From NCBI GenBank assembly GCA_037974665.1, contig CM075778.1, positions 23,006,001 through 23,070,000 of the forward strand: DNA of 64,000 bases, written 5' to 3'. Below the pieces are notes generated by a model that was not told where the DNA came from, did no database searches, and saw nothing but the letters and a program-made list of their open reading frames with translations. This document shows positions 412 to 62,160 of the stretch, piece by piece. This DNA is from Ehretia macrophylla. Taxonomy: Eukaryota > Streptophyta > Magnoliopsida > Boraginales > Ehretiaceae. The position numbers and the translations under genes were made by a program. Each line of letters starts with the position of its first letter. The stretch's first letter is position 1.

Positions 412-2693
412 TGTCACACCCCGACCCGACCCCGCAAAAGGCCAAGCCCGGACCCGACAGACGGACGAAGTCTCTTCTGTACCGTGGACGATCCGAAAAC
501 CCTACATTCAACATATTACTCGCGAAAACCACAATAATCATTTGAAACAAGTCAACTTTCTTTTAGAAACATACATCTTCTCATTAACCAACTTTGCAAA
601 CCAAAATGTCATGCATACTACACAAGTATTCATGCCACTAAGCAGTTAAACCATTAGCATGTAGTTCTTTACTAGTCACGTGAGTATATCTTTACAACTT
701 TACAATCTTTAAACTTTTACAACATAAGACCATAGAGGCCTCAAAATAGAAACTACATACAAGGCTACAAGCCTCAAAATGAAGCGTCAACAAAGCAATA
801 TACATATCAAGCATGGCCCGCACAAAAGACCGGCAACCAACAACCAACTAAGCAAAGAAAGTGCCATCAAGGAAACACCTCCACTTGCCCCTTCTTCTCA
901 ATTACCTCAATAGGATCCGCTTCAACTACTCCTATAAAATATAGTATAGAAAGGAATGAGCAAAAACTATTGCTCAGCGAGGGTAATTGGTCTCAAGGAC
1001 GGAGGTGAGAGGAGAATGCAATACAAATAGTCAAGTAGATCAGTCAATTATCATATAGAGATACAAACAAAGCCAACAATAAATCAAGGCAAGCATTAAG
1101 GCTATAATCATTCAATTAAAGGATACATTTCACTTTCCACGAGCAACTCTCAATCACGAATCCGATGATGACGCGCCGGCCCAACCACCTTATAACTTCA
1201 GTTTGGAATACCCCGGAAGTATCCAATCAATTCTACGACCCAAATTTTCCTGGGAGGCAACCCAAACAAGAAAGGGAATAGGACACGGAGCTAGGGCAAC
1301 CAACCCTGGCAACCCAAGGCTACCCAGATAGGCCCATCATACCGCCCCTGACTCTATGAATGCAATACAATATTCAATGCAACAATCGAGCAATAGAGCC
1401 ACACGTGGGAGGATAACAAAGTAGGTTACTCTCGCACGCAAAAGCAACAGTTGATAAACATTTCAATCATAATCAACTTTAACAAGCATAATAAGTAACA
1501 ATAAGCATTCTACAGGCATAACACTATAAAAACCAACAAAATCACAAAACGACGCCAACTTTCAAAACGCTACTACTTCCAAACGAGCCACGAGTTTTGG
1601 AAACCGACTTCACTATTCCTCCTAGGTCACTATAAGGCACGTCTAAAGACCACGAAACCCTACTTTACCCTAGAATTTTCGCAAAGCCCCGATTTTCCCC
1701 TTTGCTCATTTGAACTATAGCTACCCTAACCAAACACCCAACCAATGCCATAACCACACTAAAAGTGCTTCCATGGCCTCCCGAGACAACACCATCACGC
1801 AAAACGAAAAAATGCTAAACTCGACCTAAACGACCCCAACATGTACCAAGCCATTTTTCTCCGTTTTTTCATTACACAATCCAAACAAATTATGCAGTTA
1901 GGCATTTTAACATATCTAGCATCTTTTCACATCAACAGAACGCAAACAGAACAACTTTTATGAAACGAGGATTTACTATTCATAATTTACTATTCCATTC
2001 GCATTTTAAATTACAATCGCTATATTTAACTGTAGAAAATGCTAAAAAGCTACAAATACATGTTCTACAATTGACAAGGAACATTCTTCAAGCATCAAAA
2101 CGGCGATTTACACAAAATTCCTAAAAACTAAAGTTTGTATATCATACATTCAAATGCACAAATAAAGATGCTTCCCTCACCTTAGACGCTCCTAGACGCT
2201 AGGAAAACTTCGTTGGAAGCCCCGGAAACAACCCCGTGCAAGCTCTCGCGAAGATTTGAAGATTTGAAAGTTGAAAATCTTTTTTTTCTCTCCCTTGAAG
2301 TTTCGGCCCTTGCTCCCTTATTTTTCAGCTTTTCTTGTTTTATTTCTTTGCTATATAAGCTTAAAAAAGATGACAAGCTAAGTCAATAGTCAAGGCTTTG
2401 GTCAAAGGTTACTTAAGTTGGTCAAATAAGCTTATTTCTTGCATTTTAAGGCTAAAACAACTAATACAATTCTAATTCTAGTTAACAACAACTAAAATAT
2501 TAAAATTAAAACACTAAATACTAGTTTTCACTATTTGCTGAGGACTAGAAAATGCTTTCTAACTATCGCTCTCGAAATGCAATGCACTTTGCGACAATAA
2601 AGGAATAACAATTAAAATTCAAAGAATTTAAGAAAAATATAGTTTTCAGAAAAATAAATAGGAAAATTTCACATTCCGGGCTTGGGTATTACA
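412..2693 (-). mobile_element. Solo LTR, gypsy type, family A, minus strand
   Basis: Both ends read TGT...ACA and the 5-bp target duplication ACTTG is perfect (407-411 and 2694-2698), so one LTR of 2,282 bp sits alone after LTR-LTR recombination. It is related along much of its length to the LTRs at 9872-12537 and 59485-62160. On the minus strand a TATA-like stretch lies near 2355, a GTGAGGG site near 2174-2180, a hairpin at 957-976 and an acceptor-like site at 932-939. It interrupts the leader of the minus-strand copia and is therefore younger than it. Confidence 0.9.
957..976 (-). promoter_or_regulatory. LTR hairpin, family A
   Basis: Perfect 7-bp stem TGAGCAA/TTGCTCA (957-963, 970-976) with a 6-nt loop, next to the GCGAGGG string shared by the other gypsy-type LTRs. 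Same relative place as the hairpins at 11924, 17068, 20833 and 43929. Confidence 0.7.
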
Positions 2694-2698
2694 ACTTG

Positions 2699-3534
2699 TC
2701 TTCAAAGGGTCTTGGCACCTTGAACTGTTCAACACCTCCAAGTCCATCAACTCCTTGATTGATCCTGAACTTTCTTGCAAACCATATTAAACAACTATTA
2801 CATAACATGCCTCAGTACAAATCACACTCATGCAAGAAATGTAAAACAAGACTTATGTCTTAATTACAAACCAAATGAATGAAATAATATCATTACAAAG
2901 CATTCATTCGACCATTTATCTATTAGTCCATCATTCATCCAATCATTCACAATGCCAAGATATAAATATGACAAGCATGAATCACATTTATCAAAATATC
3001 ATATTGTTTAACATGTTTCTAATGTTTAAACCTTTAACATAAAATGTTAACAACTAAAAGAAACTGTAATAAAATCAAATTTTATAGCAAAAAAGGAAAG
3101 AAAAGTTGTCACTGGTTGAGGTCAACATATGACCCCTCATCCGGTTGTAACCATGGCCACCAGATGAGTAGTCATCCAGTCATAGGCAAAGGCATCAGAT
3201 GACCCCTCATCCGGTCCTAGCCATGGCCACCGGATGAGTGGTCATCGGGTCCTAGCAAAGGCACCGGATGACCCCTCATCCGGTCATAGCTTAAGGACCA
3301 GGATAAGTGATCATTTGGTTCGGATAACCTCTCATTCGGTCCTAGTCTAAGACACCAGATGAGTGGTCATCCGATCCTAGCCAAAGCTACCGGATGACCA
3401 TCATCCGTTCACCTTGTCTAGCTAACAACTGCATCTTTTTATTTATTTATTTATCTTTTAGCATTTAAAACTCATTAGAAACACGCAAACTTAATGTAAT
3501 AACATGAATATCAAGACATGGCTCTAGTACCAAT
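2699..3534 (-). mobile_element. Copia leader with primer site, minus strand
   Basis: First 0.8 kb downstream of the minus-strand copia 5' LTR. A primer-binding site reading TGGTACTAGAGCC on the minus strand (3520-3532) resembles the plant tRNA-iMet site TGGTATCAGAGCC and directly abuts the LTR. The leader is non-coding and holds the palindromic tandem array at 3119-3415. It continues at 1-411 beyond the inserted solo LTR. Confidence 0.7.
3119..3415. repeat. 70-bp tandem repeat of CCGGATGA palindromes
   Basis: About five units with most spacings near 70 bp: the core GACCCCTCAT starts at 3131, 3201 and 3270, with degenerate cores near 3326 and 3396. Each unit holds two near-perfect palindromes of the type CCGGATGACCCCTCATCCGG and CCGGATGAGTGGTCATCCGG joined by TCCTAGCC(AAAGG). 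The block is GC- and CpG-rich in an AT-rich surrounding. Confidence 0.85.
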
Positions 3535-9871: not shown

Positions 9872-12537
9872 TGTGATAACCCGAACCCGGCATGCATTTA
9901 ATGGCATTTAATTGCAATTAATTAAGTGACATCTTAAATGTTAGCATTGAATTTTGTGTTTATTTTTAAGTTAAACATTCATTTGTAGCATTATTTTCAT
10001 ATTTCTTTTAGAAGTAATTAAATAATACTTGAGTTAATTATTTTAAGGGAATATCAACTACTTTCATATTTATGTTAATCGGTTTTATTTTTCTTGCACC
10101 TTAATGCTCGGTTTTCAATTAAATGAAAAGTAGCTTCGAGCCGGAGTAAATTTTGAACTATGTTACTTTTCGAAAATTATAATTTCTTAAATTCTTTGAG
10201 ATTTAATTGTTATTCTTTTATTGTCGCAAAGTGCATAACATATCAAGAGCGATAGTTAGGAAATAATTTCTAGTCCTCAACAAATAGTGAAAACTAGTAT
10301 TTAGTGTTTTAATTTTAGTATCTTAGTTGTTGTTGATTAGAATTAATTTGTGTTGGTTGTTTTAGCTTTAAAATGCAAGAAATAAGCCTAATTGACCAAC
10401 TTAAGCAACCTTTGACCAAGGCTTGACCAATTGACTTGTTGTCATCTTTTAATATAGCATAAGATAACAAAGAAAATAAAACACAAAGCTGAAAATAAAA
10501 ACAAGGGCTGGCCGAAACTACAAGGAGAAGAAAAAAAAAGATTTCAACATTCCAAACTTCAAATCTTCACGAGGGCTTGCACGGGGTTATTTTCGAGGCT
10601 TCCAGCGTGGTTTTCCTAGCGTCTAGGAGCGTCTAAGGTGAGGGTTTCATCGTTATTTGTGCATTTGAAATAATTGTGTTTAAACTTTAATTTTTGGATT
10701 TTAGCCATAAATTGTTATTTTGATCGTTTTGATGCTTAAAGAATGTTCCTTGATGATTGTAGAACACGTATTTGTAGCTTTTTAGCATTTTCTACGGTTA
10801 AATATAGCAATTGTAATTTAAAATGCTAATGGAATAGTAAAATATGAATAGTAAACCCTCGTTTCGTTAAAGTTGCTTCGTTTTGCGTTCTATTGATGTA
10901 AGAAGGTGCTAGATATGCTAGAATGCCTAAATGTATGATTTAATTGGATTGTGTAATGGAAAAATGGAAAAAAATGGTTTGGTACAAGTTGGGGTCATTT
11001 CGGTCGAGTTTGGAAATTTCTCGATTTGCATGAAGGCATTGTCGAGGTACGTCATGGAAGCACTTTTGATGCAGTTATGACATTGGTTGGGTGATCGGTT
11101 GAGGTAGTTGTAGTTCAAACAAGCAAAGGGGGAAATCGGGGCTTTGCTGGAATTCTAGGGTAAAGTAGGGTTTCGTGGTCTTTAGACGTGCCTTATGGTG
11201 ACTTAGGAGGATTGGTGAAGTCGGTTTCCAAAACTCGCGGCTCGTTTGAAAGTAGTAGTGTTTTGAAAGTTGGGGTCATTTTGTGATTTTGTGTGTTTTC
11301 ATAGTGTAATGCCTATAGAATGCTTAATATTGCTTGTTATGCTTGTTAAAGTTGATTATGACTGAATTTGTGTATCAATTGTTGGTAATGCTTGTTAGTA
11401 TTATTCTTGTTACTTTATTGATTGTAATTGCTTATTGTATCGCATGTTGTTACTAACCTGCACTTCAGTGCCTTGCTCGATTATCGTTATATATCTCATA
11501 TTGCATTGCATAAGTGTCAGGCGCGTGAGTGATGGGCCTCTCTGGGTAGCCTCGGGTTGCCAATGTTGGTTGCTCTAGCTCCGTGTCCTATTCCCTTTCT
11601 CACTTGGGTTGCCGCTCAGGGAGTTTTGGGTCGTAGAATTGACAGAGTATGTCCGGAGTACTCTTACGGAAGTTATAAGGTGGGTGAGCAGGTGTGTCCT
11701 CGTTAAAGTCATCGAAGTCATGATCGGTACATTTCTCGCTCGAGTGAACCATAGCCTTCAGAGTGTGGTATAGCTTTGAATGGTTGTGTTAATGCTTTTA
11801 TTAATTGGTTATTGTATTGATTATTTATATTGAATGCTTGCTTGTCAATTATATTGCTTAGCTGTACCTATTTGCATTGCACGAACTTTTTTCTTTCCAC
11901 CTCGATATCTGTCTCGCCCTCACTGAGTATACATGTTGTGTATACTCACTCCTCACCACCACATTTCAGGAAATGCCATGTTAGCTGGAAAGTTCGTGAT
12001 TACGTGAAAGATCATGCTTGAAGAGTTGTCAAAGATGCAAAGATGTATGTTTCATGTGTTGTTTGTATTTAATGTTAAAAAAGAATGTAATTTAAGTTTT
12101 CTAGGTTATTGAAGTGATTTGGAAAAGCTAGTTTATGTATTCAGATAAAATAATTTAACTTTAATGTATATTTGTAATGTCCAAAGGAAAAGAGTTAGAA
12201 TGGTATGATAGTCTATTTTATGCAATGGGTTAGTATAGTTTAATTGCCTAGCATGAATGTTCTTGTCAAAGATGAAAAGAGATAGGTTAGCTTTTAAATT
12301 GGAAATGTATATTTGGTTGTGTTCGCTTGTTGAGAACCAAGGCTCGGATGGCCTTAAGGTGTTTGTATGGTTGGACACGGTGCTGGTCCACTTATATGCT
12401 ATTATAGGTTTTACATTTTGCCTAGAAACAGGGGAGACTCCGTCCGTCTTTCCCTAAAATTTTGCCCGGGTTTGGAATTGGGTTGTGATTAGATTGATAG
12501 ATTGAACTTCCGTCTCAAGAGAGATCGGGGTGTTACA
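9872..12537 (+). mobile_element. Solo LTR, gypsy type, family A, plus strand
   Basis: Starts TGTGATAACCC and ends GGGGTGTTACA. The 5-bp target duplication CTAAC is perfect (9867-9871, 12538-12542) and was copied from the telomere-like array it entered. Length 2,666 bp. It has a donor-like AAG/GTGAGGG at 10635-10644, a 10-bp hairpin at 11924-11948, an acceptor-like TTTCAG ending at 11969, and the string GGGGAGACTCCGTCCG near 12430 that recurs with changes near the end of related LTRs. Very similar to 59485-62160. Confidence 0.95.
11924..11948 (+). promoter_or_regulatory. LTR hairpin, family A
   Basis: Perfect 10-bp stem TGAGTATACA/TGTATACTCA (11924-11933 and 11939-11948), 5-nt loop, preceded by CCCTCAC and followed 21 nt later by CACATTTCAGG. 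The longest stem of the set. Confidence 0.75.
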
Positions 12538-17067: not shown

Positions 17068-17087
17068 TGAGTAACTAAAGTTACTCA
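17068..17087 (-). promoter_or_regulatory. LTR hairpin, family E
   Basis: Perfect inverted repeat TGAGTAACT/AGTTACTCA (17068-17076, 17079-17087) next to GTGAGGG; on the minus strand followed by TTTCAGG about 20 nt on. Its stem bases differ from those of families A, C and D while pairing is kept. Confidence 0.75.
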
Positions 17088-18786: not shown

Positions 18787-21284
18787 TGTGAAACCCTAGT
18801 TTTTGTCTTTATCTCAATTTGCGTGTCTTTACCTCGTTTTGCATGAATTGACCTGTTTATGTGCTATATGACTTAGAATGTGTTAAATATGTGATTAATA
18901 CTCCTAATACATGCTAAGTGTGCATTCATGAAATTTTTATCAAAAACGGCATCAGAACTTTTATCGACAATTTTTGTGAATAGTATTTTGAACACCTGTC
19001 CGCTAAAATTTTTACAAGTGTGTTTTAAACGTCTTAAAACCTAGTCCTCTATTATTAATAGACCCATGTTTGATAAAAAATGATTCTGAAACGGAATAGT
19101 AATTTAATAGACTTTTCGGGTGAAAAATAGTATTTTTGAGCCAAATAGTGATTTATTCTAAACCCGATTCTTACATTGACTATTGTTGACCTAGTATATA
19201 TTAATATAAATGTATTTATATGTGGTATTAAATGATTTTAGATTAATTGTGCATTCAAAAGACATTTGAAAATAAATAATATGACTTTTCACATTCTTTT
19301 ACAAAAAATCGTGTTTTAAGCCGACTCGGGTGAAATTGTCTGAATGTAAAACTTCTTGTCACCTAAAAATAAACTACTTGAGATAGTTTAGGTGTTGCAT
19401 AATTAATTTGAGCAAGAGTAGTCAAGAAAATGAATTTAAAGACAAGAAAACACTAAAAATAATTGGTTTCCACTTTGACTTTCTTTTATTTATTTGACTA
19501 TTGCTTATTATATCGTCAACACACATTAAAAACAAAGCAAAACACCTCAAAAAACACACACAAAACCGTGGTTCCTTGTAGGAGAAAGATGAAGACATTT
19601 TTCAAAGGTTTTCAAGCATTTTTCACATAGATTTTGCAATTCAAGTCCAAATCACTTTATTCAAAGCTTGATTTCACTTGTTTGGCATCCATTCTACACA
19701 TTTCTTGCATCAAAACACATCAAAAGTGAGAGAAAAATTCTAGATCTCAAAACTCATATTTTGTGTTTATGCGTATAAATAATTATTGAACCGTTAAAAT
19801 ATTAATCTGATGTTAGATTATTTCTCCATGCATGCTAGGGATCATTTATATGTAATCCTACGAGATTTGAACCGTTGTAGCATAATTATTATTTTTTGGG
19901 TATTTAAAGTTGATTAATTTGCTAAATGTTGATTATTTTGAGTTGTGTTGATCGGAATCGATTGCCGTCAATTTTTAAAAGTTTGTTAATTACGTGGTAG
20001 CGCCGTTGTAATTCCGAATTTTTGATTGTGATGTTCGTGCCAAAATCCAAAATTTTCAGCCATGACACACTAGGGTTTTAGGGTTATTGAGCATGATTTA
20101 GATGTGTTTTGGTTGGTTTCCAAGGGGGATAATGTAGTTGATTGAATGGGTGAGTGTTTGAAACTGATTTGGAGTTGTTTGGATTAGTAGAATGTAAGAT
20201 ATGATTATTTGAAGTTTAGGTTGTCTTTCTTTAAAATGTTAGATTGAGCCTTAGTTGGTTGGGTGTGGGTTGAGTGATTGAATTGTGAGTTGTTGATGGG
20301 TAAATTAGGGTTTGATTGTGTGTTTAATGCATGTTCGGTTAGATGGCCTACTTTGTCATCTAACTTAGTTATATGTTGTTAAATTAGTTATTGATGTTAT
20401 TATCATGATAATATGATTATTGATGATTGATGCCGGGAGGTAGGCAGTTTTGCTAGACTATCCTCCTGTGAATGATTGATGTTTATTATTATTGCTGAGT
20501 CTTTGGTATGTGTGTGCCACCTCTCGGGCAGCATCGGGCTGTCGGGTTGATAACGACATGACTACCAGAGACTGCCTCCAGCTTGCATGACGGAGGTGTC
20601 ATGGAGGGAGCGGTTATTGAGGTACCTCGAGTGCGTGAGTTTATGGGAGTCACAAGAAGGCTGTTGTGATCGTGATGGCGTTTGGAGCTACACCAACTAG
20701 TGTATCCTTTATTGAATGGTCATTATAGATTATGTGATGATAATATTATTGATGTTATTGTGTGTTTACTTGCTCAAAGGATTATTTTCAAGGAGTATAG
20801 TGAATACTGTTAGAGATCTATCGGATCCTCGCTGAGCTTGTTTTATATAAGTTCACTCTCTATTATTGCATGCATGCAGGTGTTACTGATTTTGACTACG
20901 AGTATGTGCCTCCTGAAGAGGGAAATGTGCCGTATGTGGATGAGTCTTATGTGCAGGAGTCATTGCCATGAGATTATCTTAGTTGTTGTAAAACAATGTT
21001 TTGTATAATCTATTTTGAAATGTATGTATAGCCTATGTATTAAGTTGGAACGGAGGCGTATAACTATGATTGGAATGTTGAAGAATGATTATTGTATTAT
21101 ATGGATATGTTGTATGTTGTTAACTTAATTGAGGAGATGATTATTGGGATTGTTTATGGAGTTTGATGCATGATGTTCTAAAGAGGTTGGTTTAGAGCCT
21201 CAGTGTCTTAATTACTGTCGTTATACTGCCGAAATTTCGTTGCGTCCTGACTGATTGTAGGTGGGGTCGAGTTGGGGCATGACA
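18787..21284 (+). mobile_element. Solo LTR, gypsy type, family B, nested in family E LTR
   Basis: Starts TGTGAAACCC and ends GGGGCATGACA; perfect target duplication TACAC (18782-18786, 21285-21289). Length 2,498 bp. Aligns in reverse with 53438-55932 and, more distantly, with the LTRs of the element at 43413-51255. Contains AAAAGTGAGAG near 19722-19733, a hairpin with a G-T pair at 20833-20855, ATGCAG ending at 20879, and a 28-codon frame 20888-20971. Confidence 0.95.
20833..20855 (+). promoter_or_regulatory. LTR hairpin, family B
   Basis: Stem TGAGCTT/AAGTTCA (20833-20839, 20849-20855), six Watson-Crick pairs and one G-U pair in RNA, loop of 9 nt, preceded by CCTCGC and followed by CTCTC and an acceptor-like CATGCAGG. 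Confidence 0.65.
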
Positions 21285-30900: not shown

Positions 30901-31113
30901 ACATTGAAATGTGTTTTCATAACATTCGAGAAATAGTTGCGCGAAAGGATATAAGCCTGCAGAAAATTACTATATTAGAAAATGTAGCTGACCCATTTAC
31001 CAAACCCATAAGTCAATCGCAGCTGGAACGTCATCTTGAAAAGATAGGGATGCGATATCATGTAATGATGCGCTAAAAGGCTATATTCCATAACATTAGT
31101 GCAAGTAGGAGAC
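27911..31113 (+). mobile_element. Copia polymerase region
   Basis: Copia order PR-INT-RT-RNaseH is clear. Aspartic protease-like segment 'LILDFGATTYVCMS' near 28018-28060; GAG-pre-integrase with 'LWHLRLGHINEKRL' and CX2C at about 28438-28560; integrase core and C-terminus (about 28600-29300; 'NRVLTKVVLTTTYELWFGRKP'); RT with 'WQMDVKIAFLNGYLEEDIYM' and YVDD at 30096-30107; RNase H traces to about 31060; a purine-rich tract AGTAGGAGAC just before 31114. Broken in several places. Confidence 0.92.
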
Positions 31114-33115: not shown

Positions 33116-33120
33116 ATCTT

Positions 33121-43412: not shown

Positions 43413-45967
43413 TCAGTCAGGACGCAACGTAATTTTGATAATATAACGTCTGTAATATAGATATCAGGGTTCTAAACCAACCCTTTCTAACATCAAACAA
43501 CCAACTCCAAAATTTCAACAACAACCCCACAACCATTCATCAACATTCAACATAACACATTAAACAACCATATACCATACCAACCACAAGTCATAAGCCT
43601 CTGTTTCAACAACATACCGCAAGCTATACTATACATATGCATACTTGATATAAAACTAGCCTAGCAACCTACTCATAATCCAAAGTAAGACAACTAAACT
43701 AGCATTATACTTTTCACTATCTTTATAACATCTTATACAATACAAACTTCAAAGCGAATACGATACAACTTGTTCTAATATACAAGACAACAAAAAAAAG
43801 AACTTCAGCCAAGACATCATGGATAAGACTCTTACACAATTGACTCGTCCACATAAGGCTTATACACAGTCTCTTGAGGCACGTACCCTAACTTTGGCTT
43901 GGTAACACCTAAAAGTCAGCAAAGAGGGTGAGCTTTTACAACACAAAGCTCAGCGAGGGGTCAAAAGATGTTTTGAAAATATTTATTTTATCCCTTGGAA
44001 AATCATCCTATGAACAATAACACACAATAAATTTCATTAACATCAACATTTCAATTCAAGCCACATAAATAACCATTCAATTTAGAAAGGATACACTAGT
44101 TGGTGTAGCTTCATACGCCATTACAATCTCAACCAACTTCTTGTAAATCCCATTAATACATACCAGAGGTAACTCATCTAGCTCCTCCCACCATGACATC
44201 TCTGCACATGTGAGGTAGGGGTAGTAAATAATAGTCATGCCGTTATCAACCCGACAGCCCAATGCTGCTCAAGAAGTGACACACACTATCAAGACTCATG
44301 ACAATAATAATAAATATTTCATATTCTGATAAGACAACAAAGTAGGTTGTCCTCCAGAGCAACATCAATCATCAATCAGTTATCAATACCTCAATCAACA
44401 TAACATCAATTAAACAACTAAGACAACTAAGTTAGATGACAAAGTAGGCCACCCAACTTATCACACATTCAACATGCATTCAATCCCGAACCTACTCAAC
44501 AACAATCCAAGAAACAATTACACAAACACTACCAAACAACTAAAGACAATATTTAAGCATTTTAAAGAAAGACTACACAAACTTCTAAAATTCATAACTT
44601 ACAATCTACTAATCGAACAACCCCCGAACCTTTTCCTATCACTCAACCACATATGCAACTGCATTAACCCCCTCGGAAACCAACCAAAAGCCACTCAAAA
44701 TAAGCCCAACAAGCTAAAAATGGAAATGCATACATGGCTGGTTTTTTTAGACTTTTGCTATGGAATTCAAATTGAAACTTTGGCATTACAACATTACTAC
44801 ACAATAATTAACAAACCTATAGAAGCAACTACAACTCAATTCCAACCACTACAACAACAATTATTCAAATATAAGCCAAATAATCAATTTAAATACCCAA
44901 AAAATAAAAATAGATGTTGATGCCGTTTAAAATGGCTACAAAATATATATAATTGGTCATTAGCATCTACTCAGCAATAATCTAACATCAATTTAACAAA
45001 ATAGCAACTACAAATGCATCAACCAAAAATCCAACTCAACATTAAAATAATGAACTATATTTTTCCCTCACCTTTGATGCCAAGCAATGCTATAAATGTG
45101 TAGAATGGATGGCCAACAAGCAATTTCAAGCTTTGAATGAAGTGATTTGGACTTGAAATGAGTTTTTTCTTCAAAAATTAGCTTTGAAACCCTTTGAAAA
45201 ATATTTTTTTCTTCTCCCATGGAAGCTCACGGTTTTGTGTGTTTGTGGTGTCTTTTGTGTGTTATTTGGGCTGAAATGTTTGTTAAATAAGTTAAAATGC
45301 AAGCTCAAAGTTGGCAATTTTTGCTATTTTAGTTCATTTTTGCTTAAAATAGACTAGTTAAACTATCTAACTTATATAATATATTTAGTAGGACTATTTT
45401 AGTTGACAACATTTATATATAAGCATATATATACATACAATTATTTTACAATACATATTTTTGCAAAAGAAGATGAAAAGTCATATTAATTGTTTTTCAA
45501 ATGTCTTTTAAATTCATTTTTCAATTGTGCCATTCTAGAAATATTTAAGATGATATATAATTTATATGTAATATATACTAGGTCAACAAAAGTCAACGCA
45601 AGAGTTAAATTTAGCAAAAATCACTATTTTTGCTTGAAAACGTTACTTTTCGCCCAAAAAGTCTATTTTAAATTCCCAACTTGTTTCAGAAATAATTTTT
45701 ATTAAATCACGGGTCTTTTAATAATGGAGAACTAGTTTTTAAAACGTTTAGAAGACCAGTTTCAAAATTCTAGCGGACGTGTCTTAAAATACTATTCACA
45801 AAACTCAACGATAAAATTTTCAATGCAGATTTTTATAAAAAATTCATGAATACTCACTTATCATGTAATAGAAGTAATAATCACATAATTATCACAATTT
45901 AATTCAAATAACATATAAACAGGTCAAAACATGTAATGGCAAATAAAAGCAAATTCGGGGTCTCACA
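43413..45967 (-). mobile_element. Element D: 3' LTR (terminus missing)
   Basis: Minus-strand LTR that matches 48712-51255 throughout; differences are around 6% in the first 250 bases by eye. The terminal ~28 bp present in the partner are absent here, replaced by a T/A run (43390-43410). Contains the 8-bp hairpin at 43929-43952, TTTTAG (43909-43914), GGTGAGGG (about 45066-45074) and a short frame 43832-43908. Confidence 0.9.
43929..43952 (-). promoter_or_regulatory. LTR hairpin, family D
   Basis: Perfect 8-bp stem TGAGCTTT/AAAGCTCA (43929-43936, 43945-43952) flanked by CAGCGAGGG. The partner LTR has the same hairpin at 49255-49278 with one unpaired position, at a site where a CpG has become TpG. 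Confidence 0.72.
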
Positions 45968-48711: not shown

Positions 48712-51255
48712 TGTCACGCCCTAACTCGACCCCACTTATGATCAGTCAGGATGCAACAAAATTTTGACAATATAACATCTGTAATATGGACATCAGGGCT
48801 CTAAACCAACCCTTTATAACATCACACAACCAACTCCAAAATTTTAACAACCCCACAACCATTCATCAACATTCAACACAACACATTAAACAACCATATA
48901 CCATACCAACCACAAGTCATAAGCCTCCATTTCAACAACATACCGCAAGCTATACTATACATATGCATACTTGATATAAAACTAGACTAGCAACCTACTC
49001 ATAATCCAAAGTAAGACAACAAAACTAGCATTATACTTTTCACTATCTTTATAAAATCTTATACAATACAAACTTCAAAGCAAATACGATACAACTTGTT
49101 CTAATATACAAGACAAAAAAAAAAAGAACTTCAGCCAAGACATCATGGATAAGACTCTTGCACAATTGACTAATCCACATAAGGCTCATACACAGTCTCC
49201 TAAGGCACGTACCCTAACTATGGCTTGGTAACACCTAAAAGTCAGCAAAGAGGGTGAGCTTATACAACACAAAGCTTAGCGAGGGTTCAAAAGATGTTTT
49301 GAAAACATTTACTTTACCCCTTGGGAAATCATCCTATGAACAATAACACATAATAAATTTCATTAACATCAACATTTCAATTCAAGCCACATAAATAACC
49401 ATCCAATTTAGAAATGATACACTAGTTGGTGTAGCTCCATATGCCATCATGATCTCAACCAACTTCTTGTAAATCCCATTAATACATACCGAATGTACCT
49501 CATCTAGCCCCTCCCTCTATGGCATCTCCACCCATGCGAGCTGGGGTAGTACACAATAGTCATGCCGTTATCAACCCGAAGCCCGATGTTCCCCGAGAGG
49601 TGGTACACACTATCAAGACTCATGACAATAATAATAAACATTTCATATTCTGAGAAGACAACAAAGTAGGTTTTCCTCCAGAGCAACATCAATCATCAAT
49701 TAGTTATCAATACCTTAATCAACATAACATCAATTAAATAACTAAGACAACTAAGTTAGATGACAAAGTAGGTCACCCAACTTATCACACATTTCAACAT
49801 GCATTCAATCCCGAATCTACTCAACAACAATCCAAGAAACAACTACACAAACACTACCAAACAACTAAAGACAACATTTAACTATTTTAAAGAAAGACTA
49901 CACAAACTTCTAAAATTTATAACTTACAATCTACTAATCGAACAACCCCCGAACCTTTCCCTATCACTCAACAACACATGCAACTACATTAACCCCCTCG
50001 GAAACCAACCAAAATAAGCCCAACAAGCTAAAAATGGCAATGCATACATGGCTGATTTTTTTGGACTTTTGCTATGGCATTCAAATTGAAAATTTGGCAT
50101 TACAACATTACTACACAATAATTAACAAACCTATAGAAGCAACTACAACTCAATTCCAAATAATCAATTTAAAAACCCGAAAAATAAAAATACATGTTGC
50201 TACCGTTTAAAATGGCTACAAATGCATGTAATTGGACCTTATCATCTACTAAACAATAATCTAACATCAATTTAACAAAATAGCAACTACAAATGCATCA
50301 ACCAAAAATCCAACTCAACTTTAAAATAATGAACTATATTTTTCCCTCACCTTTGATGTCAATAAATGCTAGAAATGTGTAGAATGGATGGCCAAAAAGC
50401 AATTTCAAGCTTTGAATGAAGTGATTTCGACTTGAAATGAGTTTTTTCTTCAAAAATTAGCTTTGAAAAATATTTTCTTCTTCTCCCATCGAAGCTCATG
50501 GTTTTGTGTGTTTGTGGTGTCTTTTGTGTGTTATTTGGGCTGAAATTTTTGTTAAATAAGTTAAAATGCAAGGTCAAAGTAATAAGTCATGCTCAAAGTT
50601 GGCAATTTTTGCTATTTTAGTTCATTTTTGCTTAAAATAGACTAGTTAAACTATCTAACTTAAATAATATATTTAGTAGGACTATTTTAGTTGACAACAT
50701 TTATATATAAGCATATATATACATACAATTATTTTACAATGCATATTTTTACAAAAGAAGATGAAAAGTCATATTAATTATTTTTCAAATGTCTTTTAAA
50801 TTCATTTTTCAATTGTGCCATTCTAGAAATATTTAAGATGATATATAATTTATATATAATATATACTAGGTCAACAAAAGCCAACACAAGAGTTAAATTT
50901 AGCATAAATCACTATTTTTGCTTTAAAACGTTACTTTTTGCCCAAAAAGTCTATTTTAAATTCCCTACTTGTTTCAGAAATAATTTTTATTAAATCACGG
51001 GTCTTTTAATAATGTGGAACTAGTTTTTAAAACGTTTAGAAGACCAGTTTCAAAATTCTAGCAGACATGTCTTAAAATACTATTCACAAAACTCAATGAT
51101 AAAATTTTCAATGCAGATTTTTATGAAAATTTCATGAATACTCACTTATCATGTAATAGAAGTAAAAATCACATAATTATCACATTTTAATTCAAATAAC
51201 ACATAAACAGGTCAAAACACGTAATGGCAAATAAGAACAAAATTGGGGTCTCACA
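48712..51255 (-). mobile_element. Element D: 5' LTR
   Basis: Complete LTR of 2,544 bp, left end TGTCACGCCC, right end GGGTCTCACA. The expected 5-bp target TTGAT follows at 51256-51260; the matching copy on the left was lost with the end of the other LTR. It has the same module as its partner: ctaaaa acceptor complement at 49235-49240, hairpin 49255-49278, GTGAGGG complement near 50344. Confidence 0.92.
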
Positions 51256-53107
51256 TTGATCCATTGTGCAAATCCAAGCTTGTTCTGAGGTGATCAAAGC
51301 CATCCATATCTTCTACCTTGCTCATCCTACTTGTATTTGGTAAGTGATTCATCTTATTTGACATTTTAAGTGTTTTCTTGTTTTATGTAAATATTGATAT
51401 TGTGTATATTGTTAGTATTGAAGCAAGAAATGCAAGAAATGCTAGCTTAAAGAGTGTAGAATAGACTTTTAAACTTGTGCATGTATAGCTAGAGCTTGTA
51501 TGTGTTCTTGCAAATGGATGATTGGAGAAGAAGATGAATAGTATTATTTATGCAAAGTTCAATGTTAATGGATAAATGCTTGTTCCAATGCTCCAAATAA
51601 GTGCCATAAGTGTTCTTATAGCTAGATTAATGCCTAAATTTGCTAGAATGTGATTAGAACTTGGTGTTAATGGTGTGAACATAAAGGGTCATGTGTGTGT
51701 GTCTTGGTCGTGTGTGTGTGTGCTAAATAGAGCTTATTTAAGGTTAGTTAGTGATTGTAGAGTTTCTAATGTACTCGTAGTGTAACTTCATTGATGGTTA
51801 GCTTGTATAGTAGTTAGAAAGTAAAAAGGGCTAGTTTAAAGAATGTTGAATTATTTGTCGTTAATTGGAGTAATGTTGAATTGTTTGTCGTTAATCGGAG
51901 TTTATTGACTAGTTAAGGGTGATTAAGTGAGCATGAATAGAACTTATTTAAATGCGACTCATATGTTTTTAATCGGAGGAATAGGATGGATTGAAATGCA
52001 TATGTACTTGATATGAATTGAGTGAATATATATGATATATCGTTTATATTGATTGTTATTGATTATGTGTGAGGACAGCCTCTTTTGTTGTTTCTCAATT
52101 GCGTGTTCATCGAATTGCATGAATGTTATGTATTTCATGATATGTCATGTTATCGAATCGATGGTTGCGCAACCTTATCGTTAGGGACAGATATGATGAG
52201 CCTCTCTGGGTAGCATCGGGCTTACCAGGATTGGTCGCTCTAGCTCCGCGCCCTATTCCCTCACTTGCTTAGTCTAGAGATTTCCAGGGGTGTTGGGTCG
52301 TAGGTATTGGGTACATCCGGAGTATCCACTGGAGTTTGGGATGCCGGTATATCGTTATCGGATCGTGTTCGTGATTGTGATCGAGATCGTGATCGGCAGT
52401 GAAATAAAGTGATAAGGATTATCGTATCGTGTCCTTCTTAATGTGTGATCTAGTTTATTGTCTTAATTGATTGCTTTCTATTGCTATCGATTATATGGCT
52501 CATATTTGCATTGCACAAAAATGATTTCTAAAGCTCCCCGGATATATTCTTCTCTCCCTCACTGAGCATTGTGTTTTGCTCACCCTTTTTATCTAAAATG
52601 TTTTAGGATGCAGAGACTTTGCCTCAAATTGTGAAGAAATGAAAAGTTGAAGCATTTCATTAATTGCTTGTGTTGGATACTTGTGTATGTGATTGGAAAT
52701 GATGTAAAGTATAACGTTATTTGATATTATGACTTGTATTTATTTTGTAGTTAAGCAATCTTATTTGTAATTCATAGTTGTAAAGACCTGTAATTAAGTT
52801 AGATAACTAATAAATAGCCTGTAATAAGTTTATTTAACTACTTTAGTTAGTAGATGTTAGTTTAGGATGCTTGAGTGTCATTTGCCTTGGCATGAAGTTT
52901 GAACTATTTTATGAACTTGAAATGGAACCTACTTGAGGTCTTGGGATTTTGTATGCTGCTATTATTGTGGAAATCTTCTGTGTACAGGTTTTGGTTTGGC
53001 CTAGGTATAAGGAAAACTCCATTCGTTTTGCCTCATTTTTCGTGTCTTGGGTTTGGGACGGGTTACTATAAATTGGTCTTGATTCCATGAGGGATCGGGG
53101 CATTACA
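51256..53107 (+). mobile_element. Element C: 3' LTR, second part
   Basis: Continues the LTR split by element D. Contains TTTG/GTAAGT near 51336-51346, the block GAGCCTCTCTGGGTAGC shared with family A LTRs, a 6-bp hairpin at 52563-52582, TTTTAG ending at 52606 with the frame DAETLPQIVKK-stop, and the end GGGGCATTACA. Confidence 0.88.
52563..52582 (+). promoter_or_regulatory. LTR hairpin, family C
   Basis: Perfect 6-bp stem TGAGCA/TGCTCA, 8-nt loop, after CCCTCAC. The truncated 5' LTR has the changed form TAAGCA/TGTTCA near 41255. Confidence 0.6.
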
Positions 53108-53437: not shown

Positions 53438-55932
53438 TGTCACGCCCCAACTCAACCCTTCCTATAATCAGTCAAGACTTAACAGAATTTCGACAGTATA
53501 ACGACAGTAATTAGGACACCGAGGCTCTAAACCAACCTCTTCGCAACTCATACAACCAACTCCACAAACAATTCAACAATTAAACAACACAGCCACAATA
53601 TACATTAAACATTCTTTTACCATTGCATCCATAAGTTATACGCCTCCGTTCCAACATCATACATTTACTATATAACATACATTTCCTAAAATAGATTATA
53701 ACCAATCTAGCAACCTAATCATATTCCAAAACAAGACTACTAAACTAGCAACATTTAATCCATTATCTTTACAACATCTTATACATCATAAACTTCTAAG
53801 TAAATACAAACCAACTAGTTTTAATATACAAGATAACAAAAGAGTACAACATCAGATATCAAGGACAAGACTCTGGCACATAGGACTCGTCCACATATGG
53901 CACATTCTCAGCTTCCTGAGGCACATACTCGTAATCTTGTTCAATATCACTTGTATGCATGCAATAATTGAGAGTGAGCTTATATAAAACAAGCCCAGTG
54001 AGGATTTGATAGATCTCTAACAGTATTTACTATACTCCTTGGAAGTCATCCTTTGAGCAGTAAACACATAATAATCATTAATAACAATATAAACACATTA
54101 ATTATAATAACCAATCAATAAAGGATACTCTAGTTGGTGTAGCTCCAAACGTCATCATGATCTCAACCATTCTTCTTATAACTCCCCATTACTCACACAC
54201 CTGAGGTATCTCGCTAGCCCCTCCCTCCATGGCATCTCTGCCCAGGAGAGCTGGGGGTAGCCTATGATAGCCATGTCATTATCAACCCGACAGCCCAACG
54301 CTGCCCGAGAGGTGGCACACACATACCAAGACTCAAGACAATAATAATAATCATTCATATCTCAGGAGGACAACATATCAAGTTGACTATATCCCGGCTC
54401 ATCAATAATCAATTATCACAAGAGGACAACAAAGTAGGTTGCCTATCTCCCGGCTCACAATATCAATCAATAATTATCATTTCAACAACATAACAACAAC
54501 TAGTCGAATAAGCAATAAACAACTAAGTTAGATGACAAAGTAGGCACCCAACTTAACATGCATTAACCACATAACCAAACCCTAGTCTAACCATCAACAA
54601 CTCACAATTCAATCACTCAAACATCACCCAAACATCCAAAGACATATTTCAAGATTTTAAAGAAAGACAACCCAATCTTCTAAAAGTCATAACTTACATT
54701 TTACTAATCCAAACACTTCCAAACCAGTTTCTATCATTCACCCATTCAATCAACTACATTAGGCCCCTTGGAAACCAACCATAATCCATCCAAATCAAGC
54801 CCAACAACCTTAAAACCCTAATGCATCATGGCTGAAATTTCTGGACTTTCACAACGACATCACAATCAAAATTTTTGCATTACAACATTACTACCACGTA
54901 TTTAACAAACTTTTAGAAACTAACAACAAGCAATTCCAACAACCACAACAGCATTTATTCAACAAATAGCCAAATTCTTAATTTTAATACCCGAAAAATA
55001 GAATTCTATACTACAATCGTTCAAAATAGCTATAAACCCATATAATCAATCTTTAGCATCTACTGAGCAATAATATAACGTCAATTTAACATTTCAACAT
55101 CTAAAAATTTGATTATATGAATTAACATAAAAATGACATTTTGAGATCTAGAATTTTTCTCTCACCTTTGATGTTTTATGAAGCTAGAAAAATTTGCAAA
55201 GGATACCAAACAAGTGGAATCAAACCTTGGATGAAGATGTTTGGACTTCAAATGAGTTTTCTATTAAAAATTTGCTTTAAAAAAATGTTGAAAAAGCTCA
55301 CAAAGATGGCTATGGAGTTTCGGCCCTTTGTGTGTGTGCATGAGTGTGTTTGCTTTGTTTTTAATGTGTGTTGATAGTTAAATAGGCTAAGTCAACAAAA
55401 TTGCAAAAGTCAAAGTTAGTATTTAGTCTTTTAATTTAGTATTTTTAGTCTTTTAATACTATTTTCTTGACTATTTTTGCTCAAAACATTTATGCAACAC
55501 TTAGACTATTTTAAGGAGTTTATTTTTAGGTGACAAGAATTTTCTCATGCAAAGACTTTCACCCAACTCGGCTAAAAACGCGATTTTTGCAAAAGAAAGT
55601 GTAAAACTCTTTAAAATTCCAAAGCCGATTTGAAATTCATTTTAATCACACACAGGTCTATTAATATCCGAGGACTAGGTTTTAAGACACCTAAAACACC
55701 TGCATAAAAATTTTAGCGGACGTGCGTCCAAAATACTATTCACAAAAACCGTGGATAAAATTTCTGATTTCGTTTTTTATGAAAATTTCATGAATGCACA
55801 CATAGCATGTAATAGGATTATACATAACATATTTAGCGTATTCGACTTCATATAACACATAAATAGGTCATATCATGCAAATCGAGACAAAGACACGCAA
55901 ATCGAGGTAAAGACAAAAACTGGAGTTTCATA
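53438..55932 (-). mobile_element. Solo LTR, gypsy type, family B, minus strand
   Basis: Reverse-oriented relative of 18787-21284, about 2,495 bp, left end TGTCACGCCCC, right end GGAGTTTCATA (expected CACA eroded). No primer site or polypurine tract adjoins it. The flanks TGGTC and GGATC agree at 3 of 5 places, so the target duplication is unproven. Carries the hairpin at 53976-53998, GTGAGAG complement near 55160 and a frame ending at 53859. Confidence 0.82.
53976..53998 (-). promoter_or_regulatory. LTR hairpin, family B
   Basis: In RNA orientation TGGGCTT/AAGCTCA: six Watson-Crick pairs and one G-U pair. The wobble lies at a different stem strand from that in the plus-strand copy at 20833, so the two copies changed independently while keeping pairing. 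Confidence 0.62.
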
Positions 55933-55973: not shown

Positions 55974-58301
55974 GAGAACTTTACCGTACACCTATTAACT
56001 GTTGCATTCACTATATGTGCATTTTCACTGTGCATTACTTGTTATTTTCTGTGATTACTATTCATTACGTATTTCAACTACTTATTTACTTTGAATTAGC
56101 ATTTTTCTTAAATCATATTAACTATTTTAGGAATGAGAAAAATAAGCATTTGAGTAATATGTATTAGGAAGGCTCGTTTAGAAAATGTTTTGGTGGTTTG
56201 TATGAATAGTATTACGTAGACTAACATTATATTTGAACTAGCTAACACTTATTTACACCATTAGATTTGCTTTTTAACTAGTTTGACTCACTTAAGTTAG
56301 CATTACACTCACATAAAAACAATACATATACTACTTATATACATTATAAACATATACATACTACACAACATAGAAAAAAAATAAAAGAGGGCCCCAAATA
56401 GTGCCAAACCCGACAGCCCTTTGGAGGCAAATGGGGGATTTTTGGCTCTTCAATTCTCTATTTCAAGCCAAGCCAAGCTAGGTACAAGTGATTTAGAGTG
56501 TTTGCTAGCATCCTTCAAGCTCCTATGTACTTGTGGTGAGGGATTTTGCATTCTCTTGTGTATATAAAGTTTGTATCAAAATGTTGAATTTCTAGATTTG
56601 TTGTTATTGGCTTATGATATGCACAAATCTTGTTATATATGATGCAAACATGTTGTAGAGACCACATTTATGCTATTGTTTTACTTTTTAAACGGTTAAA
56701 TTCATTGGTTGATTATAGGAAGTGAATAGTGACCTTTTTTTTTAGGGTTTGTGAAATTGTGCCTCTTAGCTTGATTTATTGCTCCAATTAGGTGCCTTAG
56801 ATGTTAATAAACGTAGATTAATAACCCCGTGAAGTTTAATTGCTCAAAACTTGGCTAAATCATGAAATAGGCGACTTTTAGAACTGGGTTTCGGGGTTAA
56901 TGCAAATCCGGGTAAATTTGACCATCATATTTAGTGTTCTTAGGCTATATAGGTGCTAGATAGGCTTTGTTAAACCTCGGTTGGGTTCCGGTTAGGGTAC
57001 ATGTAGTACAAACTCATAAAGGGTCAATCGGGGCTTTTGGTGCTAACACGGGTAATTGGGTAACTTCGAGGGTCCTAGGGGTGCCATAAGGGATATTTAG
57101 AAGTATGGTATATCCCCTCATGAAATTGGAAAATCAACTTTAGTTTGGAGGAAAACTGGCTTAAGATACAGAGGGGGAAATCAGTTATTTTGCACATCTA
57201 TGACTTTGTGAATACTTATTAGTTGTTTAAATGTGCTTTTAGATTGTTTATGAGCTTTCAGTTAAGTTTTATGAAAGACTGTTAATAACCCCGTTGTGTT
57301 CATTTAGTTGATTACATGTTAAATGTCTATATTTTTACTATTATTGAGGGCAACCTACTTTGTTCTCCCTTCTAAGTATTATTGCCTTTCAATGTTATTG
57401 TATTACCAATTGTTAAAGTGCATTGCATAGTGGTTGTGCAACCATAGTATCAGGGGCGGATGTATTGAATATCGACTGGGCGGCAGCGGGCTTACCAGTG
57501 GGTATTCGATCTCCGTGCTCTAGTCCCTCACTCGCCTGGTCCAGAGATTGCCATAGGGTGTTGGGTTATAGGATTCTCGGGGTAGCTTGTCATTCACATT
57601 GCCTTTGTTGTTCAATTGTTTTATTTGTATTAACTGTTGCATTGCACACCCTGGTAGACTTTATCCCTCACTGGGAAATTGTGGTTGCTCATACATCGCT
57701 AATATGTTTCAGGAGGTGCTGAGGTTGAACCCCACCTTGATTTAGTTGAGGGTGAGGAGCAAGAGGTGCATACAGAGCAGTTACCTTAGTTGTTGTGTGC
57801 TTTGTGCTTGAGGTGGCTATGTTTCTTGCTGTTTATATAGAGACTTTGCTTGTATTACCTTTGGGCTCATGTATATATTTGTGTAATTGTAAGCTTCAAA
57901 GTTGGATAGAGGTAGCATGAGAGATGAAAGCTATGGTATGTAATAACTTATATTTCTGCTTATAGTTGTGTTGCATGCTTAGGTGTGATTCAATGGTTAA
58001 ATGGTTGGCTTAGGTTCTTAAGAATGTTTAATTGCTAACATGGATTGGTATGATAAGTGAACGAAAGACAAAGATTCTATGATTGTTGCTTGCATGCTTG
58101 TATGTAATTATGTTGTCTTGTATTGCTTAAGGCTCGGATGGCCTTGAAGCTGGGATTTAGTTAGAATTGGAGTTCTAGTTTGTTTTTGTGGCTTTATTGA
58201 ATGTTTTCAAGTTCCCAGAATGTCCACGGTACAGAGGAGACTCTCTCCGTTTGTCGGGTCCAGATTTAACCTTTAGTGTGGGGTTGGGTCGGGGCGTGAC
58301 A
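55974..58301 (+). mobile_element. Gypsy 5' LTR (element G)
   Basis: Starts TGTGACGCTCGAG and ends GGGGCGTGACA, 2,328 bp, same family as 35480-37788 but clearly diverged from it, so the two belong to different insertions. Module: GTG/GTGAGGG at 56533-56542, imperfect hairpin at 57672-57691, TTTCAG ending at 57712, acidic frame 57718-57789, and GGAGACTCTCTCCG near 58237. Confidence 0.92.
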
Positions 58302-59484: not shown

Positions 59485-62160
59485 TGTGATAACCCGAACC
59501 CGACATGCATTTAATAGCATTTAATTACATTTGATTAAATGCCATCTTAAATGTTAATATTTAATTGCACTTGATTACATGTTTATATTTACTTGTTTAT
59601 TTGTATTTTGGCATTAACTCCCTAATTCTTTAAAATATTCTAGAAATAGTTAAATTAATTATTTTTAAATTAATATTGATTATTTTGATTGATTTGATTA
59701 TTTTAATAATCGGTTTTAATTGTCTTGCATTAAAATCACTCAGTTTTCAAATAAATGAGAAAAGTAACTCCGAGCCAGAGTGAATTTTAAACTATTCTAC
59801 TATTCTACTTATCAAAAATTATAGTTTTCTATTAGTGCTCATCATTTGATTAGCGATCGTTTATTGACCGCTCGATCGTAGCATTTCAAAAATGAGAGTT
59901 AGAGAAATATTTCCCGAATTTCGTAAAAAAATGTTTTTAGCTTAATTTAGCTAGTTTTAGTTGGTTTTCATTAAAATTGCATTGTTTTAACTTGAATTCG
60001 GTTAAATGGCATCAAAATAAACTTATTTGACCAATTTTCACTTAAGTTTGATTTTGCAAATGACCAAAATGCCCTTGTCACCTTTTAAATAATAAAACAA
60101 GGCAAAAATCAATAAAAACAATTTGCATAATGACCATTTTGTCCTTGCCATGGCCGAAGCTCTCAAGGAGGGAAAAGAAATAATTTTTCTTGCATTTTCT
60201 TCTACAATCATGCGTGGAATTGCTCGGGGGTCGTGGCTCGGGTACTTGCGGGTCTTGGTCTTCAATCTCTGTGAGGGTTTTCATGCTTTTGTGCATTTAA
60301 ATTCGAATTTGAATTTTGTGTCAAATTTTTAGATTTGATATATAATGTGTTATAATGCCTGTAAATGCTTGATAGAGCTTCTTTTGAGTTCGTAGAGCAT
60401 TGTTTGATAGTTATTTAGCAATTTTTACGGTTGAAACTGCGTATTTGAAATTGGGGAAAAATAATGAATAGTGAATTATGAATAGTAAACCCTAGAATTT
60501 CGGATTTTGGTCCGAATTACGATTGCTTGATTTGGATAGGTGCCATTAGTGATAGAAAGATAAAATGTGCAATAAAAATGGACCGGCCTTTGATAAAATT
60601 AGAAATTAGACAAAGAAACGTAAAGGGGCCGTTTGACCAAGTGTTGACCATACTCGAATTGAGTTGGGGGTTTTGCTATTAAGGGCATGGAAGCACTTTT
60701 GGCGCTGTTGTGGCGTTGATTGAATGACCGGTTAACATAGCTGTAGTTCAAATGCAGTAGGTGGACTTTCAGACTTCGGTTGGGAAAATGAAGTTTAGTG
60801 ACATAGAAACGTGCCTTGTAGTGCCTAAGTGAATGTAGTGAAATCGGTTTCTTAATCCCGTAGCTCGTTTGCTCGTAATTGCCTTTGGAAGTTAGAGATT
60901 GAATAGTGATATTTGTTATTTTCATGTTTGAACTGCCATTACCTATTTGATTGATGTTATTGTTAGTATTCATGATAATCATGCTTGAAAAGTTAATTGA
61001 TTGCTATTATTGATTGTAAATGCTTGTTATCTCATTTATCGCCATTAATCTGTACTTTCGTGTTATTGCTCGTTTATTGCTTGTATCTCATATTGCATTG
61101 CATAAGTGTTAGGCGCGTGAGTGATGGACCTCTCTGGGTAGTCTCGGGCTGCTAGGGTTAGTTGCTCTAGCTCCGTGTCCTATTCCCTTTCTCGCTTGGG
61201 TTGTCGCCCAGGGAGTTTTAGGTCGTAGAATTGACAGAGTATGTCCGGAGTACTCTAAACGGAAGTTATAAGGTGGGTGAACGAGCGCGTCATCGTTAAA
61301 GTCATCGAAGTCATGATCAGTACATTACTCGCTCGAGTGAACCATAGCCTTCAGAGTATGGTATAACTTTGAATGGTTGTGTTAATGCTTTCTTTAATTG
61401 TTTATTGTGTTTTCGTTTATATTGAATGCTTTCTTATTGATTATATTGCTTAACTGTACCTATTTGCATTGCACGATCTTCTTTCTCTCCACCTCGATAT
61501 CTGTCTCACCCTCACTAAGTATATGTGTTGAGTATACTCACTCCTCACCACCACATTTCAGGAAATGCCATGTTAGCTAGAAAGTTCGTGATTATGTGAA
61601 AGTTCGTGCTTGAAGAGTTGTCTTGCGTGCCTATGTGGCTTGAGTTGTCGAAGTTGCAAAGATGTATGCTTTCATGTATTGTATGTATTTAATGTTAAAA
61701 GGAATGTAATTTAAATTTAACTAGGTAATTGAGGTAGAATGATAAGCTAGTTTATGTAATCAGTTAGTATAGTTTAACTTCATTTCATGTTTGTAATGTC
61801 CAAAGGAAAAGAGTTAGAATGGTATGATAGTCTATTTTATGCAATAGGTTAGTATGGTTTAATTGTCAAGCTTGATTGTACTTGTCAAAGATGAGAAGAG
61901 ATAGGTTAGCTTTTAAATTGGAAATATATATATAATTTTTGTGTTTATTTGTTGAGAAACAAGGCTCGGATGGCCTTGAGGTGTTTGTATGGTTGGACAC
62001 GGTGCTAGTCTACTTATATGCTATTGCAGGTTTTGCATTTTTCCTAGAAACAGGGGAGACTCCGTCCGTCTTTCCCTAAAATTTTGCCCGGGTTTGGAAT
62101 TGGGTTGTGATTAGATTAATTGATAGAACTGCCAGTCTCGAGAGGGATCGGGGTGTTACA
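59485..62160 (+). mobile_element. Solo LTR, gypsy type, family A, in gag of element G
   Basis: Begins TGTGATAACCC and ends GGGGTGTTACA, 2,676 bp, closely matching 9872-12537. Flanks CGAGG and CAAGA agree at 3 of 5 places; both differences are G to A, and one lies in a CpG. TCT/GTGAGGG at 60268-60277, hairpin 61516-61540 with one mismatch, TTTCAG ending at 61561. Younger than element G, which it splits. Confidence 0.93.
61516..61540 (+). promoter_or_regulatory. LTR hairpin, family A
   Basis: Stem TAAGTATA/TATACTCA (61516-61523, 61533-61540) with one mismatch relative to the perfect stem at 11924-11948. Confidence 0.55.

Follow-up and report, generated by a model that had tools for sequence, protein, structure and literature searches.

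Introns have been described in a few long terminal repeat (LTR) retrotransposons of plants, such as Ogre and EVADE, and BARE1 is known to splice its Gag RNA (accessible parts of PMC6317226, PMC12786077 and PMC3735527); a 2025 review, as far as its text is available, presents these elements as generally intron-free, with Ogre and EVADE among the exceptions (PMC12786077). The present analysis concerns a 64,000-nucleotide stretch of the Ehretia macrophylla genome (C15:23006001-23070000, hereafter the window), in which LTRs of gypsy-type elements carry a small covarying hairpin just upstream of a putative splice acceptor, and in which a whole intron is predicted to lie inside the LTR.

Ogre, a member of the Tat lineage found in pea and Medicago, has its intron between the gag-prot and reverse transcriptase (RT) reading frames, and the available part of its description does not mention a branch-point hairpin. 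This arrangement was not encountered in the present elements, where the pol frame is open for up to 1,541 amino acids in lineage A, enough for an unbroken gag-pol, and where the predicted intron lies in the LTR. BARE1 and EVADE offer a parallel in that splicing accompanies separate RNAs for translation and replication (accessible text of PMC3735527 and PMC12786077); however, both are Ty1/copia elements and their splicing yields a gag-only RNA, whereas the intron considered here would fall within the LTR. In group A of the CRM chromoviruses, the polyprotein ends within the 3' LTR, which codes for its C-terminal CR motif, and words starting with 'splic' or 'intron' are absent from the main text of that report as available (PMC3059260). 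There the coding region simply runs into the LTR, whereas the LTR exon described below would need splicing and its peptide is short and acidic. A mechanistic likeness is offered by a theophylline switch, in which a structured RNA holding the branch point inhibits splicing (PMC2275289, accessible part); that device is synthetic and ligand-dependent, whereas the present hairpin is natural, conserved and present in thousands of copies.

Further reports touch the subject at its edges. Sunflower nanopore reads showed some expressed elements to be spliced, the expressed set being without a Tekay element (PMC7730604); profile work on LTRs described stem-loops in long R regions, the word splice being absent from its available text (PMC3601003); and splicing of the element is not mentioned in the accessible text on LORE1, an active chromovirus (PMC2832683). 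A literature search, with subscription journals mostly outside its range and sources partly available, returned no Tekay-like element with an intron inside its LTR and no LTR with a branch-point hairpin. If true, an LTR-internal intron repeated thousands of times would add a class to the introns of plant LTR retrotransposons and raise the question of how an element retains in its genomic RNA an intron whose splicing deletes it from its own LTR. One concrete answer would be a covarying stem that keeps the branch point closed. Each insertion of such an LTR would also bring in a splice acceptor, a point relevant to the effects of these LTRs on host genes.

Results and discussion

Hairpins of the window

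The sense direction of the LTRs was fixed by primer-binding sites at 41802 and 58308. On the sense strand, the order of elements is CCTCRC, a stem opening with TGAG, CTCAY and an acceptor. The 11 hairpins listed by the initial annotation were all found at their positions when the sequence was read again. Pairs were counted unbroken from the outside inward, with a loop of at least 3 nucleotides (nt).

957-976, minus strand: hairpin of LTR A, TGAGCAA..TTGCTCA, 7 pairs; its 3' arm CTCAT is the predicted branch point
11924-11948, plus strand: hairpin of LTR B, TGAGTATACA..TGTATACTCA, 11 pairs (the last G.U); predicted branch point CTCAC
17068-17087, minus strand: hairpin TGAGTAACT..AGTTACTCA, 8 pairs; acceptor TTTCAG ending at 17045; a single doubtful donor at about 0.5 kb
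20833-20855, plus strand: hairpin TGAGCTT..AAGTTCA (G.U), 9 pairs (two G.U); acceptor GCATGCAG ending at 20879; GTGAGG-type donor not found upstream
37200-37218, plus strand: weaker hairpin of element C, TGAGCA..TTTGGTCA; acceptor TTTCAG ending at 37239
43929-43952, minus strand: hairpin TGAGCTTT..AAAGCTCA, 8 pairs; acceptor TTTTAG ending at 43909; donor TCAAAG^GTGAGGG (the caret marks the splice boundary here and below), predicted intron from 45071
49255-49278, minus strand: hairpin of the same family as 43929, with one A.C mismatch; donor TCAAAG^GTGAGGG, predicted intron from 50350
52563-52582, plus strand: hairpin TGAGCA..TGCTCA, 6 pairs; acceptor TTTTAG ending at 52606; no good donor found
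53975-53997 (53976 in the initial annotation), minus strand: hairpin TGGGCTT..AAGCTCA (G.U), 9 pairs (two G.U); acceptor altered to ACAAG
57672-57691, plus strand: weak hairpin TGGGAAAT..GTTGCTCA; acceptor TTTCAG ending at 57712; donor CTTGTG^GTGAGGG, predicted intron from 56536
61516-61540, plus strand: hairpin of the second LTR B, with an A.C mismatch (TAAG/CTCA); acceptor TTTCAG ending at 61561; donor-like site found only in mutated form

The single lost pair reported for 49255 and 61516 is in both cases an A.C mismatch at pair 2 (TAAG/CTCA), and the hairpins at 37200 and 57672 are indeed weaker. As a measure of chance, 4,000 random starts in the window gave a stem of 7 or more pairs at 2.9% and one of 8 or more at 1.2%.

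Genome-wide occurrence and covariation of the stem

The search covered the whole Ehretia macrophylla genome (1.58 Gb in 20 contigs). The pattern called for CCTCRCTGAG followed by TTTCAGG within 22-52 nt and placed no demand on the 3' arm, in order to avoid selecting for pairing. It was matched 17,650 times, against a single match of the reversed pattern used as control. Four narrower versions gave 1,405, 122, 884 and 174 matches. From the matches listed (the first 100 in genome order for each pattern) and from the sites of the window and of individual loci, 137 distinct strings were picked by hand, mostly omitting near-identical copies, and therefore constitute a non-random sample. The covariation set comprised 115 of these, after removal of 21 strings from a pattern with a purine after TGAG, which selects mutants, and of one without the branch-point motif.

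The outer TGAG/CTCA pairs are nearly invariant, and the search patterns also fixed TGAG, so that they are uninformative on pairing. For the inner pairs (positions 5-8), covariation was assessed by shuffling arms. The 45 representatives obtained at 85% clustering formed 144 of their 180 inner pairs, versus 103.5 (standard deviation (sd) 5.8) when the 3' arms were re-dealt; none of 5,000 shuffles reached 144, and registers slid by 1-2 bases gave 46-77. The 12 representatives left at 75% clustering formed 40 of 48 pairs, versus 27.3 (sd 3.2), again with no shuffle of 5,000 as high, and the three left at 65% gave no significant covariation. Pair types among the 12 were C-G and T-A at position 5, A-T, T-A and T-G at position 6, and T-A, A-T and C-G at position 7 (with two T-T). 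A check free of choice was made on 100 matches listed with TGAGCT fixed: AG preceded the branch-point motif in 89, and the next pair in these was A-T (51), T-A (30), T-G (1) or unpaired (7). The asymmetry between G.U and A.C was not used as proof of a sense RNA: the patterns fixed the 5' TGAG, one of them required a G or a C at pair 6, and several strings have C.A at pair 5.

The hairpin was also approached from the coding region. LTRs were reached via the pol gene in 20 cases (13 of 20 pol ends and 7 of 100 loci listed in another pol search; the hairpin of L053 was known beforehand), and 18 of these LTRs carry the hairpin-acceptor unit. The exceptions are L050, without the 5' arm and with branch point, acceptor and exon kept, and L085, in which no unit was found. 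A search for relatives in IMG/VR gave three pattern matches, none similar to the studied loci.

The covarying stem is real genome-wide. The initial annotation had left the choice between a selected RNA stem and a palindromic protein site, and covariation favors the former. Inverted repeats with conserved outer halves TGAG/CTCA would suit a DNA site for a dimeric protein, with no tie to splicing, but the span between the arms ranges from 8 to 18 nt, the inner bases covary instead of being fixed, and lineage E (L082, L083, L087 and L088) has fixed a G.U at pair 3 of its TGGGCAAC/GTTGCTCA-type stems. Such a site would also leave unexplained the fixed position relative to the first AG and the intronless copy described below. 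This alternative was set aside as very improbable on account of variable spacing, covariation and the fixed G.U pair.

Anatomy of the 3' splice site

The branch point of plant introns follows the rule yUnAy, and the CTCAC or CTCAT in which the 3' arm ends in most strings fit this rule. Of the 137 strings, 135 have a branch-point-like motif at the 3' arm, and the two misses are each one base off. An acceptor near the stem, as initially annotated, is real, whereas its description as a constant TTTCAGG did not hold, variants being TTTCAG, TTTTAG, TTACAG, GCATGCAG and TATAG. What is constant is CTCAY and its distance to the first AG, 19-28 nt in 110 of the 113 distinct zones from branch A to acceptor (a set that includes the mutant-selected strings with a purine after TGAG and in which related copies are not independent). 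None of the 113 zones has an earlier AG between branch A and acceptor, versus 12.9 expected from mononucleotide shuffling, and the tract between them has a mean pyrimidine fraction of 0.80. By these features, the hairpin would house the branch point of a 3' splice site recognized by the spliceosome, and the splice site is well supported. The initial interpretation was thus correct in part; it had overlooked that the 3' arm would itself serve as branch point for a 3' splice site, that a whole intron is predicted inside the LTR, and that the exon behind it appears protein-coding in several families.

Another possible explanation is that the stem serves replication or packaging of the genomic RNA and that its nearness to the acceptor was inherited by chance. 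Lying inside the intron, such a stem would be lost from spliced RNA, which could then stay unpackaged, in keeping with the rarity of intronless copies. The coincidence of the 3' arm with the branch-point-like motif in nearly every string argues against this explanation, which we consider quite improbable.

A different function can be proposed for the same 3' splice site, namely that the stem promotes splicing by hiding AG-bearing upstream sequence and by displaying the branch point at the helix base, beside the pyrimidine tract. An AG is present inside the hairpin in 79 of 113 interiors and never between branch point and acceptor, and the branch A, which forms the closing pair of the stem, is less surely paired than the base before it (median pairing probabilities 0.79 and 0.99). 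The same median of 0.79 means, however, that branch A is still predicted to be paired in most strings, and in Arabidopsis single-strandedness and accessibility of the branch site go with splicing (PMC7784297, accessible part). A promoting stem appears unlikely, if less so than the packaging signal.

Donors and predicted LTR-internal introns

A donor G^GTGAGGG (mostly AAG^GTGAGGG) was found 1.1-1.9 kb upstream in the same LTR in six groups, namely A, B, C, D-like (43958 and 49284), L017/L024 and 57666. The LTR is predicted to contain an intron because this donor lies upstream of CTCAY, the pyrimidine-rich tract and the first AG. Such introns in the LTRs A, B and C of the window are the following.

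932-2180, minus strand: predicted intron of LTR A, donor TCTAAG^GTGAGGG to acceptor TATAG^G, 1,249 nt
10638-11969, plus strand: predicted intron of LTR B, TCTAAG^GTGAGGG to TTTCAG^G, 1,332 nt; missing as a unit in the relative L092
36046-37239, plus strand: predicted intron of the element C LTR, ACATG^GTGAGGG to TTTCAG, 1,194 nt

The 130-150 nt that run up to the donor in A, B and C are rich in A and lack ATG, except for one at the junction itself in C. This stretch would be a leader exon, with a presumed transcription start, and a TATA-like box stands at a fitting distance in window A and C. It is worth noting that an acceptor-like ATGTTGCCAG^CTAyTrTrAG is conserved 18 nt before the gag start codon in L062, L063, L071, L072 and L074. 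The leader exon could be spliced to this site before the gag ATG.

An intronless copy

Joined exons of LTR B were sought genome-wide as a 28-nt string with at most 3 mismatches, which more diverged junctions would escape. One match was obtained (1 mismatch), in locus L092, and none with the control. L092 aligns with LTR B at 84% identity as far as the donor and at 80% beyond the acceptor; the 1,332 nt of the intron, no more and no less, are missing. It is a solo LTR that starts with TGTGATAACCC, ends with GTGTTACA and is flanked on both sides by ATGGG, a 5-bp target-site duplication; no primer-binding site was found in its locus. This structure is the expected product of reverse transcription from a spliced RNA. 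In vivo use of the 3' splice site with a GT donor thus has indirect support, from this single junction copy. Spliced RNA seems rarely to be a reverse-transcription template, because intronless and junction copies are so scarce in the searches, and this scarcity would suit an element that needs its intron.

The downstream exon and a second donor behind pol

In five groups, a short acidic reading frame closed by a stop stands at the start of the exon behind the acceptor, in constant phase: VVEADPIEVIEEEEQVEVFP (A), SAEGEPQLVEVLVEEEEVQAEPLP (E), VAELDPQVPLVVMAEEEENAEF.. (C), ITEPDFGYVPQEVENVPYVDEFYVPESYP (D-like) and EEDQEQVPEDNVPNDDSLE (L024). Shared variants fall at codon positions 1/2/3 in the numbers 2/1/9 for A (12 sequences) and 5/7/26 for E (10 sequences), and this excess at position 3 indicates that the frame has been under coding selection. 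The frame is absent in family B and in 17093. Family B hairpins recur about 4.3-4.9 kb apart, and the family is therefore taken as non-autonomous.

Just after the chromodomain region, all 20 elements examined have a donor, which reads GTAAG in 19 and GTAGG in the other; AATT and a short inverted repeat come next. This second inverted repeat, AATTGCG..CGCAATT, lies after the pol donor and before the polypurine tract (35439-35475, plus strand, and L029-L048). Among 20 copies, all 7 pairs are kept in 11, pairing is kept via G.U in 3, and 6 have one mismatch; its letters are conserved despite a differing reading frame between lineages.

37240-37325, plus strand: exon in the LTR of element C, reading VAELDPQVPLVVMAEEEENAEFPLFEC up to a stop and in phase with the pol donor; the pol of this copy has a TAG a few codons before the donor
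35439-37239, plus strand: predicted alternative 3' intron of element C, from TCAA^GTAAGAATT just after the chromodomain to the acceptor of the 3' LTR

In the C group, the pol frame and the LTR exon are in phase in window C, L037+L064, L038+L050 and L040+L052; in L039 with L051, the acceptor is mutated. Other sources of the peptide were considered and rejected. A gag-start donor CAAG^GTATAG occurs in L062 and L063 and is not conserved in L071, L072 and L074; the remaining GTAAG sites of phase 1 in gag-pol come after Gly-Lys or Ser-Lys codons and are no evidence; and translation from the leader exon (A, B, L017, L024) would meet an in-frame TAA directly before the junction. No upstream exon for the peptide was recognized in two of three lineages (A and E).

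Proposed mechanism

The 5' LTR transcript would be spliced to the AG behind the hairpin from G^GTGAGGG, where a leader exon ends that is nearly free of ATG in families A, B and C, and the conserved donor after the pol chromodomain (GTAAGAATT) probably joins the same acceptor in the 3' LTR. The stem may compete with U2 small nuclear RNA for the branch point, because CTCAY is the 3' arm and its A the closing pair, and splicing would then be inefficient. Inhibition of splicing by a branch point placed in a ligand-held RNA structure is a precedent (PMC2275289, accessible part). Unspliced genomic RNA would be left in sufficient amount for reverse transcription, which must copy an intact LTR. Such a brake would be selected, because a spliced template can delete the LTR intron from descendants. 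We infer the braking role of the stem, the transcription start and the use of the pol donor; that a stem-held branch point restrains splicing of the LTR intron, so that unspliced genomic RNA survives, is the best explanation of the whole and in our judgment a somewhat probable one. A wider proposal, in which the hairpin is a self-encoded splicing brake that determines how much RNA is spliced and how much stays unspliced in thousands of plant chromovirus copies, one acceptor serving two introns (5' LTR leader, and pol tail into the 3' LTR) and thereby controlling translation and replication, is put forward tentatively and must be considered rather doubtful.

Several observations weigh against a stem-restrained LTR intron. 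The case for splicing is built on genomic sequence, and pairing could also aid splicing by presenting the branch point. Folding stability is modest, with a median energy of -8.4 and a median z of -1.30 over the 115 strings (z at or below -1 in 68, at or below -2 in 27). A GTGAGG-type donor was not found in the 20827 LTR, L014 and L020, is weak in the 52557 LTR and mutated in the 61510 LTR, while L002-L004 and 17093 match only at about -520 to -546, which is doubtful. No fitting TATA-like box was seen in B or in three other A copies examined. The intronless copy is a single one, from family B, and the same kind of joined-exon search for family A found none. Copies of a pol-LTR junction were likewise not found, lineage A giving two matches, both unspliced acceptors, and lineage E none. 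Lastly, the pol-LTR join of lineage A would read CAG GAG TAG, so that the peptide frame is not continued from the pol donor, and lineage E has a stop at the junction (TCA TGA) in L082-L084, the three with an intact acceptor; the acceptor is mutated in L086-L088.

Classification of the elements and setting of the window

Element C contains RNase H, H2C2, rve and SH3_Tf2-1 domains in this order at 33185-35413 (rve below cut-off), and L080 has H2C2, rve and SH3 domains. In element C, they are followed by a polypurine stretch AAGGGGGAGAGAG and a 2.3-kb LTR. By this domain order, with integrase after RT-RNase H, the hairpin-bearing LTRs are assigned to Ty3/gypsy elements. The Chromo domain (PF00385) scores weakly, with E 4e-4 and 20.7 bits in lineage A (cut-off 25.1) and E 0.011 and 16.1 bits at the element C C-terminus. 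These elements are presumably Tekay/Del-like chromoviruses, judging from their long LTR, TGTAACACCC-type ends and initiator-Met primer site.

A second conserved LTR block, CTGGGTAGCCTCGGGTTGCCA..GTTGCTCTAGCTCCGTG..CTATTCCC, is shared by several families (11537, 52201 and 61129, all plus strand) and stands 316 nt upstream of the hairpin in L002-L004. The window further contains copia and gypsy pol and CCCTAAA-type arrays, a content typical of plant DNA. A copia element with LTRs 90% alike (23731-33116, plus strand) is nested in the pol gene of gypsy element C, and tandem arrays occupy 22151-22920 (copy spacing about 71-141 nt) and 3116-3411 (about 35-69 nt).

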